Made by a program: the position numbers and the translations under genes
Source: Alphaproteobacteria bacterium
Lineage (GTDB): Bacteria > Pseudomonadota > Alphaproteobacteria > Rhizobiales > Rhizobiaceae
Direction: 5' to 3'
Length of the DNA: 64,000 nt
Assembly: GCA_024280375.1 (NCBI GenBank)
Contig: JAJRQF010000123.1
Location: 1-64,000 of the forward strand
Notes under the pieces: generated by a model
The model's database searches: none
The model's input: only the letters and a program-made list of their open reading frames with translations
Told to the model about the DNA's origin: nothing
Shown: positions 6,224 to 15,862 of the stretch, in pieces
How the letters are laid out: each line of letters starts with the position of its first letter
How positions within the stretch are numbered: position 1 is the stretch's first letter

Positions 6224-6393
6224 GCCGATTGGTCCTTGTGGATATTGGTAGCCAAGGGTTCTGACCCTAAATGCGGCACTCTCTTGCCCTTGCTGGCCGA
6301 TGTCAATATAAACTGAGGTTTGAGGTTTTTGGATCAATTGCTTGGATACAAATATCTCCGGATATAGATCAACCAGCCTCAGAATCGAAACCT

Positions 6394-7737
6394 ATGAATA
6401 TTCTTGGATCGACCCTCCATTCAACCGGAATAACAGCATTGACCGGTTTGGCTGCCGATCTGGCCGAGCGTGAGGCAATTGGAAAACCAGTGCGAATTGG
6501 TATTATCGGTGCAGGTGAAATGGGCACAGATCTTGTGACCGCCGTTGCTCATATGCCGGGGGTTGAGATCGCCGCAATTGCCGATCGCCGATTGGCAGGC
6601 GCGCCCCAGGCCATTGAAATCGCTGGTTATGACGCTGACAAAGGGGCGATTTGCGAATCTCCCATGCAAATGAATTTAGCGATTGAAAACAACCAGATAG
6701 CAATAACGCGTGATGCAGCGGATGTGGTATCTAATGAACTTGTTGAAGTGGTGATCGATGCAACTGGTCGCCCTGCCGCCGGTGCTGAAATTGGCCAGAG
6801 CGCCATTGATAACGGCAAACATCTGGTGATGATGAATGTCGAGGCTGATGTCACCATCGGGCCCTATTTAAAAAATCTGGCCCGGAAAAAAGGTGTCATC
6901 TATACGGTCGGTGCAGGTGATGAACCAAGCTCCACCATTGAGTTGATCAATTTTGTTACAGCGATGGGCTATCCCGTTGTTGCGGCAGGCAAGGGCAAGA
7001 ACAACGCGTTCAATGTTCAGGCGACACCAGACGATTACCGCGAAGAGGCCGAGCGGCGCAATATGAACCCGCGTATGCTGGTCGAATTTATCGATGGTTC
7101 AAAAACCATGGTGGAAATGTGTTGCATCGCCAATGCCACTGGCCTTGTGCCCGACAAGCCGGGTATGCACGGACCGGATTGTTCGCTGGAAGAATTGCAG
7201 GATGTGCTTTGCCCGGTAGAGGATGGCGGCATTCTCTCTCAGAAGGGCTGCGTGGATTTCACCGTCGGCAAGGGGGTGGCGCCGGGAATTTTTGTTATTG
7301 CTGAAATGTCTCATCCGCGGATTCGCGAACGGATGAATGATTTACACCTTGGGCCGGGACCCTATTACCGGTTTTATCGGCCCTACCATCTTACCAGTTT
7401 GGAAGTGCCATTGTCGGCGGCCCGCGCGGTGCTCTATGGAACGGCAGATATGCAGCCGATGGACCGGCCTGTGGCTGAAGTTTGTGCATTGGCAAAACGG
7501 GATTTGAAAAAGGGCGAAAAACTCGATTTTATCGGCGAATATTGCTATCGTTCATGGGCCATGCGCGCAGATGACGCACGTGACCAGCAGGCCATACCAG
7601 TGGGGCTGTTGGAAAACGGTATTATGACGTGTGATGTGAAGATGGGAACACTGCTCACCCGCGCAAATTGTAACGTTGATGAGGCCTCGACGCTTTATAA
7701 AATGCGAAAAATGCAAGATGAGATGTTAGGCTACTAA
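6394..7737 (+). CDS. Homoserine dehydrogenase-like NAD(P)-binding protein with SAF domain (COG4091 type)
   Basis: A 447-residue oxidoreductase-like protein. The N-terminal Rossmann fold is seen as IGIIGAGEMGTDLV at about residues 32-45, and a homoserine-dehydrogenase-like middle part follows (VVIDATGRPAAG, TVGAGDEPSST). The C-terminal ~90 residues (EVCALAKRDLKKGEKLDFIGEY onwards) match a SAF domain, as found in sugar-acid dehydratases and antifreeze-like proteins. Proteins of this build are called predicted homoserine dehydrogenases, but as far as I know they are often linked to sugar-acid or C4-C5 polyol catabolism, so the true substrate is uncertain. The start at 6394 has only a weak ribosome site. 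A longer frame from 6271 adds a low-quality N-terminus overlapping the divergent gene region. Confidence 0.8.
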   Translation: MNILGSTLHSTGITALTGLAADLAEREAIGKPVRIGIIGAGEMGTDLVTAVAHMPGVEIAAIADRRLAGAPQAIEIAGYDADKGAICESPMQMNLAIENNQIAITRDAADVVSNELVEVVIDATGRPAAGAEIGQSAIDNGKHLVMMNVEADVTIGPYLKNLARKKGVIYTVGAGDEPSSTIELINFVTAMGYPVVAAGKGKNNAFNVQATPDDYREEAERRNMNPRMLVEFIDGSKTMVEMCCIANATGLVPDKPGMHGPDCSLEELQDVLCPVEDGGILSQKGCVDFTVGKGVAPGIFVIAEMSHPRIRERMNDLHLGPGPYYRFYRPYHLTSLEVPLSAARAVLYGTADMQPMDRPVAEVCALAKRDLKKGEKLDFIGEYCYRSWAMRADDARDQQAIPVGLLENGIMTCDVKMGTLLTRANCNVDEASTLYKMRKMQDEMLGY

Positions 7738-7867: not shown

Positions 7868-9028
7868 ATGAGCGATATCAGTTTAATCAGTGGCACGGAC
7901 CACGGAAATATTTCAACCAGAGGTATTCGTGTTTGGGATTTACCCGTGCGATTGTTTCACTGGGGGCTTGTTGTTGGCGTATCGACGGCACTGGTTACCG
8001 GATTTCTGGCTGAGGAATGGTATCTCGATATCCATAGTTGGGCCGGATATACAATTGCATTCCTGATTTCATTCAGATTGATTTGGGGCTTTGTCGGGTC
8101 AAAATATGCCCGTTTTGCAAGTTTCATTTTCACCCCAAAAGAGACCATTGGCCATATCAAAGAATTTGCCCGCGGAAACTCAGCTCATTATTCCGGACAT
8201 AATCCTGCGGGCGCGCTGATGGTCTTTACGCTGTTGGCGGTGCTTTTCCTGCTCACTGTTTCGGGGGTAATAATCCTTGGCGGGCAAGAAAATCTGGGTG
8301 CTTTGGCAGGATTTATTTCATTCGAAATTGGCGCGTTTCTGGTCGAAATTCACGAATTGCTGGCCTGGTCACTGATTCTTCTCATCATCGCCCATGTGGC
8401 CGGCATGATTATTGAAAGCCGCATTAGTAATGAAAACCTTGCCTTGGCAATGGTCACCGGCAAGAAAAAGGATACCAGCAGCGAACCGATTACCATGTCG
8501 GTTTCAACGATTGCCCTGCGCGCTGTGGTGATTGCAGCAATTGTTGGAGGGGCAGGGTTTACTCTTTATCAAAAATATTCGGCCGTACCCGCCAGCGGGC
8601 TGGTAAGGCTTGTGCCAAACGAGACCTATAACAGCGAATGTGGTGATTGCCATTATGCCTATCACCCAAGTCTTTTACCAAAAAGTTCGTGGCAGGGCAT
8701 CATGGCCAACCTCGATGATCATTTTGGTGAAGATGCTTCCCTTGATGCTGAAACGGTTAAATCCATATCTGCTTGGCTGAATGAAAATTCATCCGAGGCG
8801 TGGGATACCGAGGCCGCCAATAATCTGCGCGAGGTTTCTCCAAAATCTCCGTTGAGCATATCTGAAACACCCTATTGGCTGCTCAGACATTCCGAAATCG
8901 ACAAAAACATATTCAAGCAAGCCAATATTGGAACCAAAGGAAATTGCGTTGCCTGCCATAGCGATGCGAAAACCGGGCGCTTCGATGATGCCGCAATTTC
9001 AATTCCACCTCCCAAGCCAAATACCTGA
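7868..9028 (+). CDS. Cytochrome b561 fused to a diheme cytochrome c (DHC) domain
   Basis: A 386-residue membrane electron-transfer protein. Residues 1-~200 are a cytochrome b561 (Ni/Fe-hydrogenase b-type) domain with four hydrophobic helices and likely heme-ligand histidines in LFHWGL, DIHSWAGY, EIHELLAW and IIAHVAGM. A fifth helix near 217-233 (AVVIAAIVGGAGFTLY) leads to a periplasmic diheme cytochrome c domain with CGDCH at 258-262 and CVACH at 360-364. The second half closely resembles the separate DHC gene downstream (shared HFGEDASLD-type motif). In Rhodobacter sphaeroides the cytochrome b, DHC and SHP are separate genes of one operon; here b and DHC are one polypeptide. Role: passing electrons from the quinone pool to SHP is inferred. 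Confidence 0.88.
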   Translation: MSDISLISGTDHGNISTRGIRVWDLPVRLFHWGLVVGVSTALVTGFLAEEWYLDIHSWAGYTIAFLISFRLIWGFVGSKYARFASFIFTPKETIGHIKEFARGNSAHYSGHNPAGALMVFTLLAVLFLLTVSGVIILGGQENLGALAGFISFEIGAFLVEIHELLAWSLILLIIAHVAGMIIESRISNENLALAMVTGKKKDTSSEPITMSVSTIALRAVVIAAIVGGAGFTLYQKYSAVPASGLVRLVPNETYNSECGDCHYAYHPSLLPKSSWQGIMANLDDHFGEDASLDAETVKSISAWLNENSSEAWDTEAANNLREVSPKSPLSISETPYWLLRHSEIDKNIFKQANIGTKGNCVACHSDAKTGRFDDAAISIPPPKPNT

Positions 9029-9046
9029 GATATAAAGGATACTCCC

Positions 9047-9448
9047 ATGAAAAAAATTCTACTTGTACTTTCAACCGCAGTAATGGTTGCGCTGGCGGCA
9101 CCTGCATTTGCCGGCGCCAAACAAGACGCTGTAATGGATCATTACAAAAAACTGGCAAAAGGCAGTTTTTCCGCATCACGCGGCAAAGCATTCTTCGGTG
9201 CAACCCACACCGGCGGCAAACCGGCAACACCTTCTTGCACATCATGCCACACGAAGTCGCCAGCCAATACCGGCCACACCAGAGCAAACAAACCGATTGC
9301 CCCAATGGCATTTTCCAAGTCACCAGATCGTTTTGGCGAGTTGAAAAAAGTCGAGAAATGGTTTGGACGCAATTGCCGCAGCGTTTTGGGGCGCGAATGC
9401 ACCGTGCAGGAAAAAGGCGACTTCCTGGCCTTCATGTTTAGTCAATAG
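9047..9448 (+). CDS. DUF1924 monoheme cytochrome c, SHP-type
   Basis: A 133-residue periplasmic cytochrome. The Sec signal peptide MKKILLVLSTAVMVALAAPAFA is cleaved probably after residue 22, and a single heme motif CTSCH lies at 64-68. The segment WFGRNCRSVLGREC holds an Asn next to two Cys residues eight apart. In the sphaeroides heme protein (SHP) an Asn ligates the heme iron and a nearby disulfide exists, so this fits SHP. SHP binds oxygen and NO-type ligands, and its physiological role is unsettled. It sits 18 bases behind the cytochrome b-DHC gene, and a second DHC gene follows, as expected for an SHP redox partner. Confidence 0.9.
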   Translation: MKKILLVLSTAVMVALAAPAFAGAKQDAVMDHYKKLAKGSFSASRGKAFFGATHTGGKPATPSCTSCHTKSPANTGHTRANKPIAPMAFSKSPDRFGELKKVEKWFGRNCRSVLGRECTVQEKGDFLAFMFSQ

Positions 9449-9483
9449 CCACCGATCCCATACCTTTACTGGAGAAAATTATT

Positions 9484-9927
9484 ATGAAAAAGACATTAGT
9501 AATGACTGCAATGATAGCCGCAATGGCGTTGACGCCAGCCAACACTTGGTCGAAAAACCGTGGTGTAAAAGATGAGTTGACCAAAACAGAGTGTGGCGCT
9601 TGCCACATGGTTTTCCAGCCACGCTTTTTGCCTGCCGTATCATGGACCAACATCATGTCTGATCTTGGCAACCATTTTGGTGAAGATGCAACGCTTGATG
9701 AAGAAACCAGAATCAAGATTGAGGCCTATCTGGTCAAAAAGGCCAGAAAGAAAGAGTTTAAAAAGGTAATAGACGGCAAGCAGCCAATTCGTATTACCGA
9801 AATTCGATGGTTCAAACGCGAGCATCGCCGCGAAGTTTCAAAGCGGGCGATGAAACGCGCTGGCACAATGTCAAATTGTGTGGCTTGTCATAAGGGTGCC
9901 GAAAGAGGCCAATATGACGACGATTGA
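9484..9927 (+). CDS. Diheme cytochrome c (DHC), secreted
   Basis: A 147-residue periplasmic diheme cytochrome c. The signal peptide runs to about residue 23, and the heme motifs are CGACH at 37-41 and CVACH at 132-136. The central part (SWTNIMSDLGNHFGEDATLDEET) is paralogous to the DHC half of the fusion protein two genes upstream. A GGAG site precedes the start. DHC is the known electron donor to SHP in R. sphaeroides. Here two DHC modules exist, one membrane-tethered and one free, so an electron relay b-DHC(fused) to DHC(free) to SHP is a reasonable inference. A strong terminator follows directly. Confidence 0.9.
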   Translation: MKKTLVMTAMIAAMALTPANTWSKNRGVKDELTKTECGACHMVFQPRFLPAVSWTNIMSDLGNHFGEDATLDEETRIKIEAYLVKKARKKEFKKVIDGKQPIRITEIRWFKREHRREVSKRAMKRAGTMSNCVACHKGAERGQYDDD

Positions 9928-10286: not shown

Positions 10287-10447
10287 GGAAACTCCTTTGG
10301 AATTTATATACGATTTTTTGAATATACGTTTTCCCCAAAATCTGCAACCAGCGGAAACGGATGAGGGGAACTTGAGCCGTTGCACTGAGCGCCTTCATGT
10401 GCAAATGCTGCGGCCAGATCAATCGAGCAACAGACGAAAATATCCCA

Positions 10448-10987
10448 ATGAGTAACATACTGGCCCTTTATACATTTGGTGTTTTTATTGAACCCTCGGA
10501 GCATCCATCTAACGATGGGTTTCACCAGAGAAATGACCCCATTCTGGATGATGTTGCAAACGCGTCAGGCTTTATTGCGCGCTCGGGCTATGAGGGCGAT
10601 CCTGGCCCCGAAAGTTGGGGGGTGCAGGTCCAGCCCCGTTTTTATCAGGAGCGGGGTGATGGTTGGTCGCCTGCCACTTTGTCATTGTGGCGTGATCTGG
10701 AATCGATGATGGCATTTAGCTATTTTGGCCTGCATGCAGAGGCGCTGTCCAAAGGGCGTGAATGGTTTGAGAAACCAAAATGGCCACCTTATGTGACCTG
10801 GTGGGTAGAGCAAAACCATGTTCCACAATGGAGCGAAGCGGTGGAGCGGCACGAATATTTGCACGCACAAGGCCCGACACCGAAAGCGTTTAATTTCAAA
10901 CAGCCATTTGATGCAACAGGTGCCGCAATCTCAATCCAGCGAGAGAAAATCAAACAGCTGGTAGCGAATGCTTCAAAAAGTATTTGA
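10448..10987 (+). CDS. DUF3291 domain protein
   Basis: A 179-residue soluble protein. The body (DPILDDVANASGFIARSGYEG..., TLSLWRDLESMMAFSYFGLHAEALSKGREWF, WPPYVTWWVEQNHVPQWSEAVERHEYLHAQGPTPKAF) has the layout of DUF3291 proteins, which are relatives of the dimeric alpha-beta barrel/monooxygenase-like group. No catalytic function is established for the family. The start at 10448 is chosen because of family-like MSNILALYTFGVF; the frame is open further upstream to 10397. It stands alone between the divergent zinc-ribbon gene and the purine catabolism genes. Confidence 0.75.
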   Translation: MSNILALYTFGVFIEPSEHPSNDGFHQRNDPILDDVANASGFIARSGYEGDPGPESWGVQVQPRFYQERGDGWSPATLSLWRDLESMMAFSYFGLHAEALSKGREWFEKPKWPPYVTWWVEQNHVPQWSEAVERHEYLHAQGPTPKAFNFKQPFDATGAAISIQREKIKQLVANASKSI

Positions 10988-11068
10988 TAAAAATTTAGAG
11001 ATTGTCGTTGTATTCAATCGCTATGATCGCACAATGTGACTTGTATGAAATAAAACGAAAGACAGTTT

Positions 11069-11977
11069 ATGACTGATTACCCGCGCGATATGGTTGGCTA
11101 TGGCCGCAATACACCTGATCCTAAATGGCCTGATGGCGCAAAAATTGCCGTTCAATTCGTGATCAATTATGAAGAGGGTGGTGAGAATAACATTCTGCAT
11201 GGCGATGCGGCCTCTGAAGCATTTTTGTCTGAAATTGTCGGTGCCGCCGCATGGCCCGGCCAGCGCCATATGAACATGGAATCAATCTATGAATATGGTT
11301 CGCGCGCCGGGTTTTGGCGGTTATGGCGCATGTTCACTGAAAGAAATATGCCGGTCACCGTGTTTGGGGTTGCAACGGCTTTGGAAAAAAACCTGGAAGC
11401 GGTAGCCGCCATGAAAGAGGCAAATTGGGAAATCGCCACCCACGGATTGAAGTGGATTGAATATAAGGATTTCACCAAAGAAGATGAACGCAAACATCTG
11501 GAAGAGGCGATCCGCATTCATACGGAAGTGACCGGCAGCCGCCCCAAAGGCGTTTATACCGGGCGCTCGTCAATCAATTCGCTGGATATAGCGATGGAGG
11601 AGGGCGGCTTTACCTATTCGGCCGATGCCTATTCCGACGATCTGCCCTATTGGGTTGATGGGCCAAACAAGCCGCATCTGATTGTGCCCTATACGCTTGA
11701 TGCCAATGATATGCGCTTTGCAACGCCGCAGGGATTTAATTCCGGTGATCAGTTTTATGCCTATCTAAAAGATAGCTTCGATGTGCTTTATCAGGAAGGT
11801 GGCGAGGGCCGCGCAAAAATGATGTCGATTGGCCTGCATTGCAGGCTGGTGGGCAGGCCCGGGCGGGCGGCTGCTCTGGCACGTTTTCTCGATTACATTC
11901 AAGGCTTTGAAAAGGTGTGGGTTTCTCGCCGCCTTGATATTGCCGAACATTGGCATGAGCATCACGCACCAGAGTAA
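11069..11977 (+). CDS. puuE: Allantoinase of the polysaccharide-deacetylase family (PuuE)
   Basis: Hydrolyses allantoin to allantoate in ureide catabolism. It is a 302-residue cytoplasmic protein of the NodB/polysaccharide deacetylase fold. The opening YPRDMVGYGRNTPDPKWPDGA and VQFVINYEEGGENN is the characteristic PuuE N-terminus, followed by EYGSRAGFWRLWRMF, ATHGLKW and the C-terminal SIGLHCRLVGRPGRAAAL. It belongs to the metal-independent/PuuE branch, not the amidohydrolase AllB family. It lies 124 bases upstream of xdhA, which has its own likely promoter region, and four further purine-breakdown genes follow, which supports the assignment. Confidence 0.93.
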   Translation: MTDYPRDMVGYGRNTPDPKWPDGAKIAVQFVINYEEGGENNILHGDAASEAFLSEIVGAAAWPGQRHMNMESIYEYGSRAGFWRLWRMFTERNMPVTVFGVATALEKNLEAVAAMKEANWEIATHGLKWIEYKDFTKEDERKHLEEAIRIHTEVTGSRPKGVYTGRSSINSLDIAMEEGGFTYSADAYSDDLPYWVDGPNKPHLIVPYTLDANDMRFATPQGFNSGDQFYAYLKDSFDVLYQEGGEGRAKMMSIGLHCRLVGRPGRAAALARFLDYIQGFEKVWVSRRLDIAEHWHEHHAPE

Positions 11978-12047
11978 ACCTGAATAAAATTCCGTTACTT
12001 ACAAGTTTTCTTTGAAACACCTATTGTGCCAATTTACTGAAATTAAT

Positions 12048-12066
12048 GTTATGGTTCGCCCATAAC
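12048..12066. promoter_or_regulatory. Inverted repeat upstream of xdhA (probable operator)
   Basis: GTTATGG-TTCGC-CCATAAC is a perfect seven-base inverted repeat with a five-base spacer, 35 bases before the xdhA start. A weak sigma70-like pair (TTGTGC at 12025, then TGTTAT 17 bases on) ends inside the left arm, so a regulator bound here would block initiation. It could instead be a hairpin in the leader. The regulator is not identified. Confidence 0.5.
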
Positions 12067-12101
12067 AGAGCAAATAAATAGCCACAGGAGGATATGCTGC
12101 T

Positions 12102-13520
12102 TTGAACCCGATCAGGTTTCACATTAACGGCAGATTGACCGAGGCATTCGTGCGCGCCGATATGACGGTGCTGGAATGGCTTCGTTCAAATCCACAAACA
12201 TGCGGTTCAAAAGAAGGTTGCGCCGAAGGTGATTGTGGTGCCTGCTCGATCTTGCTGGCAAATCCCGGCAGCGATGCGGGCGATTTTGGTGCCGTTAACA
12301 GCTGCATCATGTTGATGGGGCAGATCGAGGGTTGCTCGCTGATTACAGTAGAAGGCCTGTCACCGAATGAAAGTGAACGCCACCCGGTTCAGGTGGATAT
12401 GGCTGAAAATGGCTCCTCCCAATGCGGATTTTGTACACCCGGTATCGTGATGTCGCTCGCGGGACTGCTGAACAGAAATTCAAATCCCAATGACGAACAA
12501 ATTCATGATGCGCTGGCGGGTAATCTTTGCCGTTGCACCGGCTATCGACCGATTGTCGAAGCGGCAAAATCAGCCGCAGATAAAAGCATCGACCGGCTGG
12601 CCAAACTGGCCGGAAGTGCAATCGCCTCGGATGATGCTTCCAATGTCATCGGGAACGAGGATTCGGTATTTTTCCGGCCGAAAACACTGACTGAACTCTG
12701 CACAATCCGGTCTGAGCACCCAAGTGCTGCCCTGCTTGCCGGTGGCACGGATTTAGGCCTTGGTGTGGCTGAGGCAAAAACCCGCTGGCCGATGGCGATT
12801 GTCACCGCTGGCGTTGGTGAAATGCTGCAAATTAATGAGTATGACGATCATATCAGTTTTGGTGGTGCGGTAACCTGGGAACGCGCCTTGCCGTATTTGC
12901 ACAGGCTTTATCCCTCATTTGCCACCATGGTGCGGCGCTTTGGTTCCACGCAAGTGCGCAATATGGGAACCATTGCCGGAAATATCGGCAATGCCAGCCC
13001 AATTGGCGATGGTCCACCGGCGCTGATTGCGCTTGGCGCAATCATTGTTCTTGCAAGTGTTGATGGTGAGCGCGAGATATTGCTAGAAGATTTCTGCACC
13101 GGCTATCGTCAAACCGTTTTGGCAGATGATGAGGTTATCTCACAGATCAAATTGCCGCTGCCAAAAGCCAGCCAACAATTCAGGGTCTACAAAATATCCA
13201 AACGATATGATCAGGATATTTCCACCGTTTGCGGGGCGTTCTCGATTGAGATCGTTGATGGCATCATTGCCAATGCCCATGTGGCCTTTGGTGGAATGGC
13301 CGCGACCAGCCAGCGCTGCCCGGGGGCGGAAGCTGCCCTAAACGGCAACCAGCTTGGCATGGAATTAATCGAAGCCGTATCAGCGGCCATCAACGCGCAT
13401 TTTTCTCCGCTGGATGACTGGCGCGGCAGTGCAAAATATCGGGATGTAGTTGCAGCAAACCTGTTTGAACGCTTTGTCCGCGATGTGGCGGGTGAAACAG
13501 TGGAGGTAATGGCGCTTTGA
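12102..13520 (+). CDS. xdhA: Xanthine dehydrogenase small subunit (2Fe-2S and FAD domains)
   Basis: Electron-transfer subunit of xanthine dehydrogenase, which oxidises hypoxanthine/xanthine to urate. It has 472 residues. The N-terminal plant-type ferredoxin domain has CGSKEGCAEGDCGAC, then the second 2Fe-2S domain with CGFCTPG and CRCTGYRP. The FAD-binding domain starts at about residue 190 (LLAGGTDLGLG) and holds RNMGTIAGNIGNASPIGDG. The start is a TTG at 12102, with AGGAGG nine bases upstream; the only nearby ATG is followed at once by a stop. The last four bases overlap the xdhB start, giving translational coupling. Confidence 0.95.
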   Translation: MNPIRFHINGRLTEAFVRADMTVLEWLRSNPQTCGSKEGCAEGDCGACSILLANPGSDAGDFGAVNSCIMLMGQIEGCSLITVEGLSPNESERHPVQVDMAENGSSQCGFCTPGIVMSLAGLLNRNSNPNDEQIHDALAGNLCRCTGYRPIVEAAKSAADKSIDRLAKLAGSAIASDDASNVIGNEDSVFFRPKTLTELCTIRSEHPSAALLAGGTDLGLGVAEAKTRWPMAIVTAGVGEMLQINEYDDHISFGGAVTWERALPYLHRLYPSFATMVRRFGSTQVRNMGTIAGNIGNASPIGDGPPALIALGAIIVLASVDGEREILLEDFCTGYRQTVLADDEVISQIKLPLPKASQQFRVYKISKRYDQDISTVCGAFSIEIVDGIIANAHVAFGGMAATSQRCPGAEAALNGNQLGMELIEAVSAAINAHFSPLDDWRGSAKYRDVVAANLFERFVRDVAGETVEVMAL

Positions 13521-15862
13521 ATATTCAGCAAAAACTTGGCAACCTTACCATGCAGCGAATGCATGTGGGCAAGGGTTATGCCCATGATTCCGCCGTCAAA
13601 CACGTTGAAGGCAAGGCCATCTATATTGATGATATGCCGGAATTGCCCCGCACCATGCATGCAGCTTTAGTGTTGTCGCCTGTTGCTCACGGGTCTTTGA
13701 ACGGCATTGATGCAAGCGAAGCGCTGGCCCTGCCGGGAGTGATAAAAGTAATCACCGCAAAGGATGTGCCCGGCCACAATGATGTGGCGCCGATACTTTC
13801 TGGCGAGGCGCTGTTTGCTGAAACCACGGTTGAGCATGTCGGCCATATTGTTGCAGCGGTCGCCGCCGATAGTTTTGAAATTGCCGTTCAGGCAGCACGG
13901 CTGGTTAAACTCGATATTACCCCGCTTGAACCGGTGCTTGATGTGGAGTTGGCCCACAAGAACAAATCCTATGCGCTTAAAGTTCAGCATTTGATTGAAG
14001 GCGATGCGGCAAGCGCCATTGCCGGGTCAGAAAAACAGTTTGAAGGCACATTTCGTATTGGCGGGCAGGATCACTTCTATCTCGAAGGCCAGATTGCCTA
14101 TGCCCATCCGGGCGAAGACCGCGATGTGACGGTCTACTCCTCTACCCAGCACCCAAGCGAAGTGCAGCACCATGTGGCCCATGTGCTGGGCGTTCCGGCC
14201 CACGCGGTCGATGTGCAGATACGGCGCATGGGTGGCGGCTTTGGTGGCAAGGAAAGCCACCCGACCATTATTGCAGCGATTGCGGCCATTTTTGCCGATA
14301 GTGAAAAGCGTCCCTGTCGACTGCGGTTGCGCCGCCATGATGACATGATGGCCACCGGCAAGCGCCATGACTACGTGATAAACTGGAAGCTTGGGGTAAA
14401 AGCCGATGGTCGTATTGTTGGCCTAAATGCCGAATGCCTTGCCAATGCGGGCAATGTCGCAGACCTCACCGGCCCGGTGATCACCCGCACGCTCACCCAT
14501 CTGGACAATTGTTATTCAATTCCGGCGGCTGATTTCATTGGCCATGCCTGCAAAACTAATACGGTTTCTAACACTGCATTTCGCGGCTTTGGCGGGCCGC
14601 AGGGCATTGTGGCGATTGAAGGTATCATTGACACGGTTTCGCGCAAACTGGGCATGGACCCGAACCATATGCGCGCGGTCAATTATTACGGCCCCGATAC
14701 GGGCGAGAAAACCCCTTACGATCAGCCGGTGGTTGATAACCGCATTAATGATGTGGTTGACCGGATTTTGCAAACCGCAGAATGGGAGCGCCGCCGTAAA
14801 GAAATTGACGCACATAACGCAACCAATCCGCTGCTGCGTCGCGGGCTGGCGATGATGCCGGTTAAATTCGGCATTTCGTTCAATCTGCCAACGCTCAATC
14901 AGGCCGGTGCGCTGGTGCATGTCTATATGGATGGTTCAGTTCATTTGAACCACGGCGGCACCGAAATGGGGCAGGGGCTGTTTACCAAGGTTGCCCAAGT
15001 TGTGGCCGAGGTTTTTCAGATTGATGCTGACAAAATAAAGATCACCGCCACCAATACCGGTAAGGTGCCGAACACAAGTGCAACCGCTGCATCCACCGGG
15101 TCTGATCTCAATGGCGCGGCGGCTTTCAAGGCAGCCAGCGAAATCAAGGCGCGGATGATCGAGGTTGCAGCCAAGCAACTGGATGCAAACCCGGACGATA
15201 TTATCTTTGCCGATAATTCGATCAGCGGCAATGGCAAGTCGATGACCTTTGCCGAACTGGCCAATCGCTGCTGGTTCAACCGTGTTTCATTGTCGGCCGC
15301 AGGCCATTATGCAACGCCGGAAATTCACTGGAATGCGGCAACGCTGAAAGGCCGTCCGTTTTATTATTTCACCTATGGGGCCGCTGTCGCCGAAGTGGCA
15401 ATTGATACGCTGACTGGCGAAACCCGCTGCCTGCGCGCCGATATTGTTCAGGATTGTGGTAAACCAATAAACCCGGCCATTGATTTAGGCCAGGTGGAAG
15501 GCGCATTTGTGCAAGGCATGGGCTGGCTCACCTGCGAGGAATTATGGTGGGACAAAGAAGGTGCGCTGCGCACCCTTGGGCCTTCGACCTATAAAATTCC
15601 CGGTTCCAGAGATGTGCCGGAAATATTCAACGTCGCCATTCTGGATGACAAGCCCAATCATGAAAACACTATCTTTCGATCCAAAGCCGTGGGTGAACCA
15701 CCTTTGATGTTGGCAATCTCCGTATGGCTTGCGCTGCGTGATGCGGTCTCGTCCATATCTGGTGGTAGGCTTGCTGCCAATCTTGATGCACCGGCGACAC
15801 CGGAGCGGGTGTTATTTGCCGTGGAAGATATGAAGCAACGCGTTACGGCAGGTAGCGAGTAA
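13517..15862 (+). CDS. xdhB: Xanthine dehydrogenase large subunit (molybdopterin domain)
   Basis: Catalytic molybdenum subunit partnering xdhA. It has 781 residues, normal for a bacterial XdhB. Visible family motifs include the N-terminal GKGYAHDSAVKHVEGKAIYIDD, the cofactor-binding RRMGGGFGGKES, TAFRGFGGPQG, GTEMGQGLFTKVAQV and the C-terminal FRSKAVGEPPLML containing the active-site glutamate. The start codon is TTG at 13517 overlapping the xdhA stop (TTGA), with GGAGG ten bases upstream. An ATG at 13551 is a less likely alternative. The XdhC insertion chaperone usually encoded next is absent from this cluster. Confidence 0.95.
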   Translation: MNIQQKLGNLTMQRMHVGKGYAHDSAVKHVEGKAIYIDDMPELPRTMHAALVLSPVAHGSLNGIDASEALALPGVIKVITAKDVPGHNDVAPILSGEALFAETTVEHVGHIVAAVAADSFEIAVQAARLVKLDITPLEPVLDVELAHKNKSYALKVQHLIEGDAASAIAGSEKQFEGTFRIGGQDHFYLEGQIAYAHPGEDRDVTVYSSTQHPSEVQHHVAHVLGVPAHAVDVQIRRMGGGFGGKESHPTIIAAIAAIFADSEKRPCRLRLRRHDDMMATGKRHDYVINWKLGVKADGRIVGLNAECLANAGNVADLTGPVITRTLTHLDNCYSIPAADFIGHACKTNTVSNTAFRGFGGPQGIVAIEGIIDTVSRKLGMDPNHMRAVNYYGPDTGEKTPYDQPVVDNRINDVVDRILQTAEWERRRKEIDAHNATNPLLRRGLAMMPVKFGISFNLPTLNQAGALVHVYMDGSVHLNHGGTEMGQGLFTKVAQVVAEVFQIDADKIKITATNTGKVPNTSATAASTGSDLNGAAAFKAASEIKARMIEVAAKQLDANPDDIIFADNSISGNGKSMTFAELANRCWFNRVSLSAAGHYATPEIHWNAATLKGRPFYYFTYGAAVAEVAIDTLTGETRCLRADIVQDCGKPINPAIDLGQVEGAFVQGMGWLTCEELWWDKEGALRTLGPSTYKIPGSRDVPEIFNVAILDDKPNHENTIFRSKAVGEPPLMLAISVWLALRDAVSSISGGRLAANLDAPATPERVLFAVEDMKQRVTAGSE

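Follow-up and report, generated by a model that had tools for sequence, protein, structure and literature searches.

The locus at positions 7868 to 9927 of the 64,000-nucleotide stretch of DNA analyzed here (the window) is an ordinary Rhodobacter-type SHP operon, of a kind that is already known. It consists of three genes on the + strand: a CytB/mDHC chimera gene (7868..9028; 386 aa, a single open frame), the SHP (DUF1924) gene (9047..9448; 133 aa), and a gene for a soluble diheme cytochrome c, termed sDHC (9484..9927; 147 aa). The order chimera, SHP, sDHC on one strand is the one that defines the Rhodobacter type in PMC2909971. In that paper, Meyer, Kyndt, and Cusanovich (2010) described the R. 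sphaeroides operon as a CytB/mDHC chimera, SHP, and soluble DHC; thus, the architecture is not new. An earlier note on this DNA had called the locus "rearranged," on the premise that R. sphaeroides carries three separate genes. That premise was wrong, since the paper gives the same chimera in the same order, and the fusion as a novel architecture was ruled out by it.

Domains and conserved residues of the three proteins

The gene content proposed in the earlier note (a 386-residue b561-DHC fusion, SHP, and a second free DHC) was borne out by open reading frames with strong Pfam matches. The chimera matched Ni_hydr_CYTB over residues 22 to 198 (E value of 7.3e-26; 91.5 bits against a cutoff of 30.1) and DHC over residues 254 to 372 (2.1e-35). 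The gene at 9047 to 9448 matched DUF1924 (9.7e-34), with 116.1 bits against a curated cutoff of 22.5, and the gene at 9484 to 9927 matched DHC (7.1e-36). Both DHC modules combine a PF09626 match with two CxxCH motifs, which are CGDCH at 258 and CVACH at 360 in the fused module and CGACH at 37 and CVACH at 132 in the free one. As had also been suggested, the two modules are related, with 38.8% identity over 129 positions (E value of 2.9e-31). Among solved structures, the free DHC matched 2fw5 (2.4e-39) as well as 2fwt and 3u99, while SHP matched chain 1dw0 (2.1e-31) and, more weakly, cytochrome c'' 1e8e. The genome itself has one DUF1924 match and two DHC matches, the latter both at the SHP locus.

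All heme-site Cys and His residues are invariant across 18 aligned fusion rows. In the b domain, His31, His56, His162, and His176 are likewise invariant in 18 of 18; by analogy with the family, they are presumably the heme ligands of a b561-type cytochrome. Hydropathy analysis of the chimera gave peaks at about residues 29 to 47, 119 to 137, 143 to 161, 164 to 182, and 208 to 226; the second b561 helix stayed below the threshold, so that the expected helices came out only partly clean. Positively charged residues follow the fourth b561 helix (185 and 199 to 201). Because of these charges and the further helix at about 208 to 226, we infer that the fused DHC domain lies outside, in the periplasm.

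SHP has a hydrophobic, signal-peptide-like N-terminal segment and a single CxxCH heme site, CTSCH at residue 64. Its WFGRNC motif and another Cys eight positions further along (W-x3-N-C and C-x7-C) fit Trp84, the Asn88 ligand, and the Cys89-Cys97 pair in the numbering of PMC2909971. In the ligand region of 21 aligned SHP rows, Asn and Trp are found together in 19, and Asp and Arg take their places in 2 (L030 and L037), neither of which has a fused DHC. The two Asp/Arg proteins resemble the Rhodospirillaceae type described in that paper, whereas the SHP studied here is of the Asn type.

Proposed electron path and its end use

With a high degree of confidence, we assign the locus to the SHP operons and propose a path of electrons from quinol to SHP. 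The b561-like domain would draw electrons from the quinol pool and pass them across the membrane via two b hemes, and the fifth hydrophobic segment would place the fused DHC in the periplasm. SHP would then be reduced by the fused DHC, either directly or via the soluble DHC. Upon reduction, the Asn ligand would leave and the ferrous heme would bind O2 (or NO), such that SHP could serve as an electron-fed periplasmic oxygenase, with conversion of NO and O2 to nitrate as a possible reaction. The earlier note had pictured a tethered electron wire that leads from membrane cytochrome b through DHC to SHP and is joined by a soluble DHC shuttle. That picture fits the anatomy of the proteins and agrees with the path proposed for R. 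sphaeroides, from quinol to CytB to the DHCs to SHP (PMC2909971). The sequences themselves show the genes, their domains, the heme motifs, the ligand residues, and how far these are conserved; the quinol donor, the membrane topology, and the physiological role in this organism are the parts that we infer.

The most likely function is a periplasmic quinol-to-SHP chain feeding a reaction with O2 or NO; taken by itself, the NO/O2 end step has about an even chance of being correct. For R. sphaeroides, work cited in PMC2909971 found that DHC reduces SHP, that SHP binds O2, and that it has NO dioxygenase activity, the NO role being traced there to a single report. The genome analyzed here carries a copper nitrite reductase gene (G000:C1:30622-31602; 487.8 bits against a cutoff of 296.3), and it may therefore make NO; a search of the genome for cd1 nitrite reductase found none. 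With this nitrite reductase gene, the genome would be a suitable background for tests of the proposed NO role.

The same operon and electron path could instead serve in redox stress caused by metals or minerals, in place of chemistry with NO or O2. SHP would then act as a sensor-like or shuttle heme protein, an end use that we consider possible but rather doubtful. In Allochromatium vinosum, genes for DUF1924, two diheme c proteins, and a b561 protein ranked among those induced most strongly on pyrite compared to sulfide (PMC11267869), and heavy-metal transport genes adjoin some SHP operons according to PMC2909971. Both observations count against a pure NO role and point elsewhere. In our own comparison, SHP has a cation diffusion facilitator gene nearby in Caballeronia and one for a copper ATPase in Ruegeria. 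However, no metal transport gene adjoins the operon here; its neighbors encode an oxidoreductase, a DUF3291 protein, a deacetylase-like protein, and a xanthine-dehydrogenase-like protein.

Our literature search returned PMC11267869 as the one further SHP study. Within its pyrite-induction table, the DUF1924 gene Alvin_0022 stands second, with a log2 change of 7.10, and is accompanied by the neighboring diheme c and b561 genes; this offers a lead on SHP function.

Genomic neighborhood and regulation

Upstream of the operon, positions 6391 to 7737 encode an NAD-binding oxidoreductase with a DRL catalytic domain (PF21135), which adjoins the SHP operon in both same-genus carriers. Downstream, positions 10397 to 15862 carry DUF3291, a gene resembling polysaccharide deacetylases, and a xanthine-dehydrogenase-like pair of genes, the second of which (13517 to 15862) is a putative assignment. 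The pair may act in purine breakdown. By Pfam annotation of the neighbors, the operon is free of sensor kinases and response regulators, and the regulator pair of Ruegeria had no match in the window. FNR-like sites numbered 61 in the window against 49.7 expected, with 8 of 100 shuffles giving as many, and none fell between 7738 and 7868. On this basis, we draw no conclusion about regulation. Scans for promoters and terminators gave results near chance.

Distribution and origin of the fusion

DUF1924 was found in 8 of 61 genomes in a sample of relatives (7 without our own genome) and in 12 of 385 in a sample of the class (11 without it). We left out two matches of the class sample that were weak (22.5 and 21.3 bits) and lacked matching neighbors. 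Of the 16 other genomes that remain, each with a strong match to DUF1924, 14 carry the fusion, always in the order fusion, SHP, sDHC. The earlier note had named, as evidence that would refute it, a fusion that is common and already described, and both proved to be so, given this survey and PMC2909971. The fusion is also present on two Ruegeria plasmids, and a contig search returned at least two named relatives (an Alphaproteobacteria and a Hyphomicrobiales MAG), both with the fusion. Judging by these named relatives, we take the sampled class to be Alphaproteobacteria. The SHP-locus genes of Caballeronia grimmiae are separate.

One of the two exceptions, L030 (4183-5172), has CytB fused to SHP, with a b561 match of 23.1 bits that falls under the cutoff; this fusion has the Asp-type ligand and lies near a two-component pair. 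In the other, L037, a stand-alone open reading frame of 188 aa upstream of SHP looks like a cytochrome b. The long N-terminal extensions of L025 (1003 aa) and L023 (524 aa) held no extra N-terminal Pfam domain, and we therefore took both as overlong open frames. The operon is patchy, with DUF1924 in 2 of 33 genomes from other genera of the family and 3 of 24 from other families of the order.

Using 39 DHC rows (18 fused and 21 free), we found all fused rows on one side of a single branch with support of 100/99, recovered in 100% of 200 bootstrap trees, in a tree that is unrooted, was built without an R. sphaeroides sequence, and has 12 of 36 inner forks open. The 2010 paper places the origin of the DHC fusion within the Rhodobacteraceae (PMC2909971). 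Our tree instead suggests that the DHC duplication and the CytB fusion predate the sampled families, which is wider than that. We give even odds to the reading that both happened once, early in the Alphaproteobacteria and not within the Rhodobacteraceae, and that the result was then inherited or transferred as a single unit. If the operon had been transferred whole, such a tree would show the same pattern. The broader sample suggests that the fused DHC is a lasting component that arose once in the class.

The fusion is also settled close to home. Two of three same-genus genomes have DUF1924 (the third, without a match, is 72% complete), and both carry the fusion in the same gene order (L026 and L024; 386 and 388 aa). 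The genes upstream of the operon are common to both, and we therefore regard the operon as an established feature of the genus. Against the nearer relative, L026, substitutions fall mainly at third codon positions, with differences at first, second, and third positions of 16/5/42 in the b domain, 5/3/15 in the linker (residues 201 to 250), and 11/4/25 in the DHC domain. A frame or assembly error merging two genes into the 386-residue product, for which the earlier note had singled out 8500 to 8600, is so improbable that we rule it out: the frame is open throughout 7868 to 9028, relatives carry the same fusion (both same-genus genomes and 14 of 16 other genomes overall), and the linker changes in a coding-type pattern.

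Comparison with known SHP systems

Taken alone, the locus has little significance, being one more conserved copy of a described operon. Its likeness to the R. sphaeroides operon extends to the three genes, the fusion, their order, and the lack of an adjoining regulator, as well as to an SHP with the Trp, the Asn ligand, and the disulfide cysteines. The two differ by sequence divergence, the comparison being made through the description in PMC2909971. The same source lists chimeras also in Rhodoferax, Campylobacter, Arcobacter, Sulfurospirillum, and Wolinella and gives CytB as unfused in most other species. The Rhodospirillum rubrum type described there has the same domains as the operon studied here, but SHP rather than DHC is fused to CytB, the DHC is separate, and the sixth ligand is Asp; with its CytB fused to SHP, L030 is of this type. 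The Caballeronia cluster (L042) also shares the three domains, but there SHP, DHC, and CytB are separate genes in that order, followed by regulator genes, with a single DHC and no fusion.
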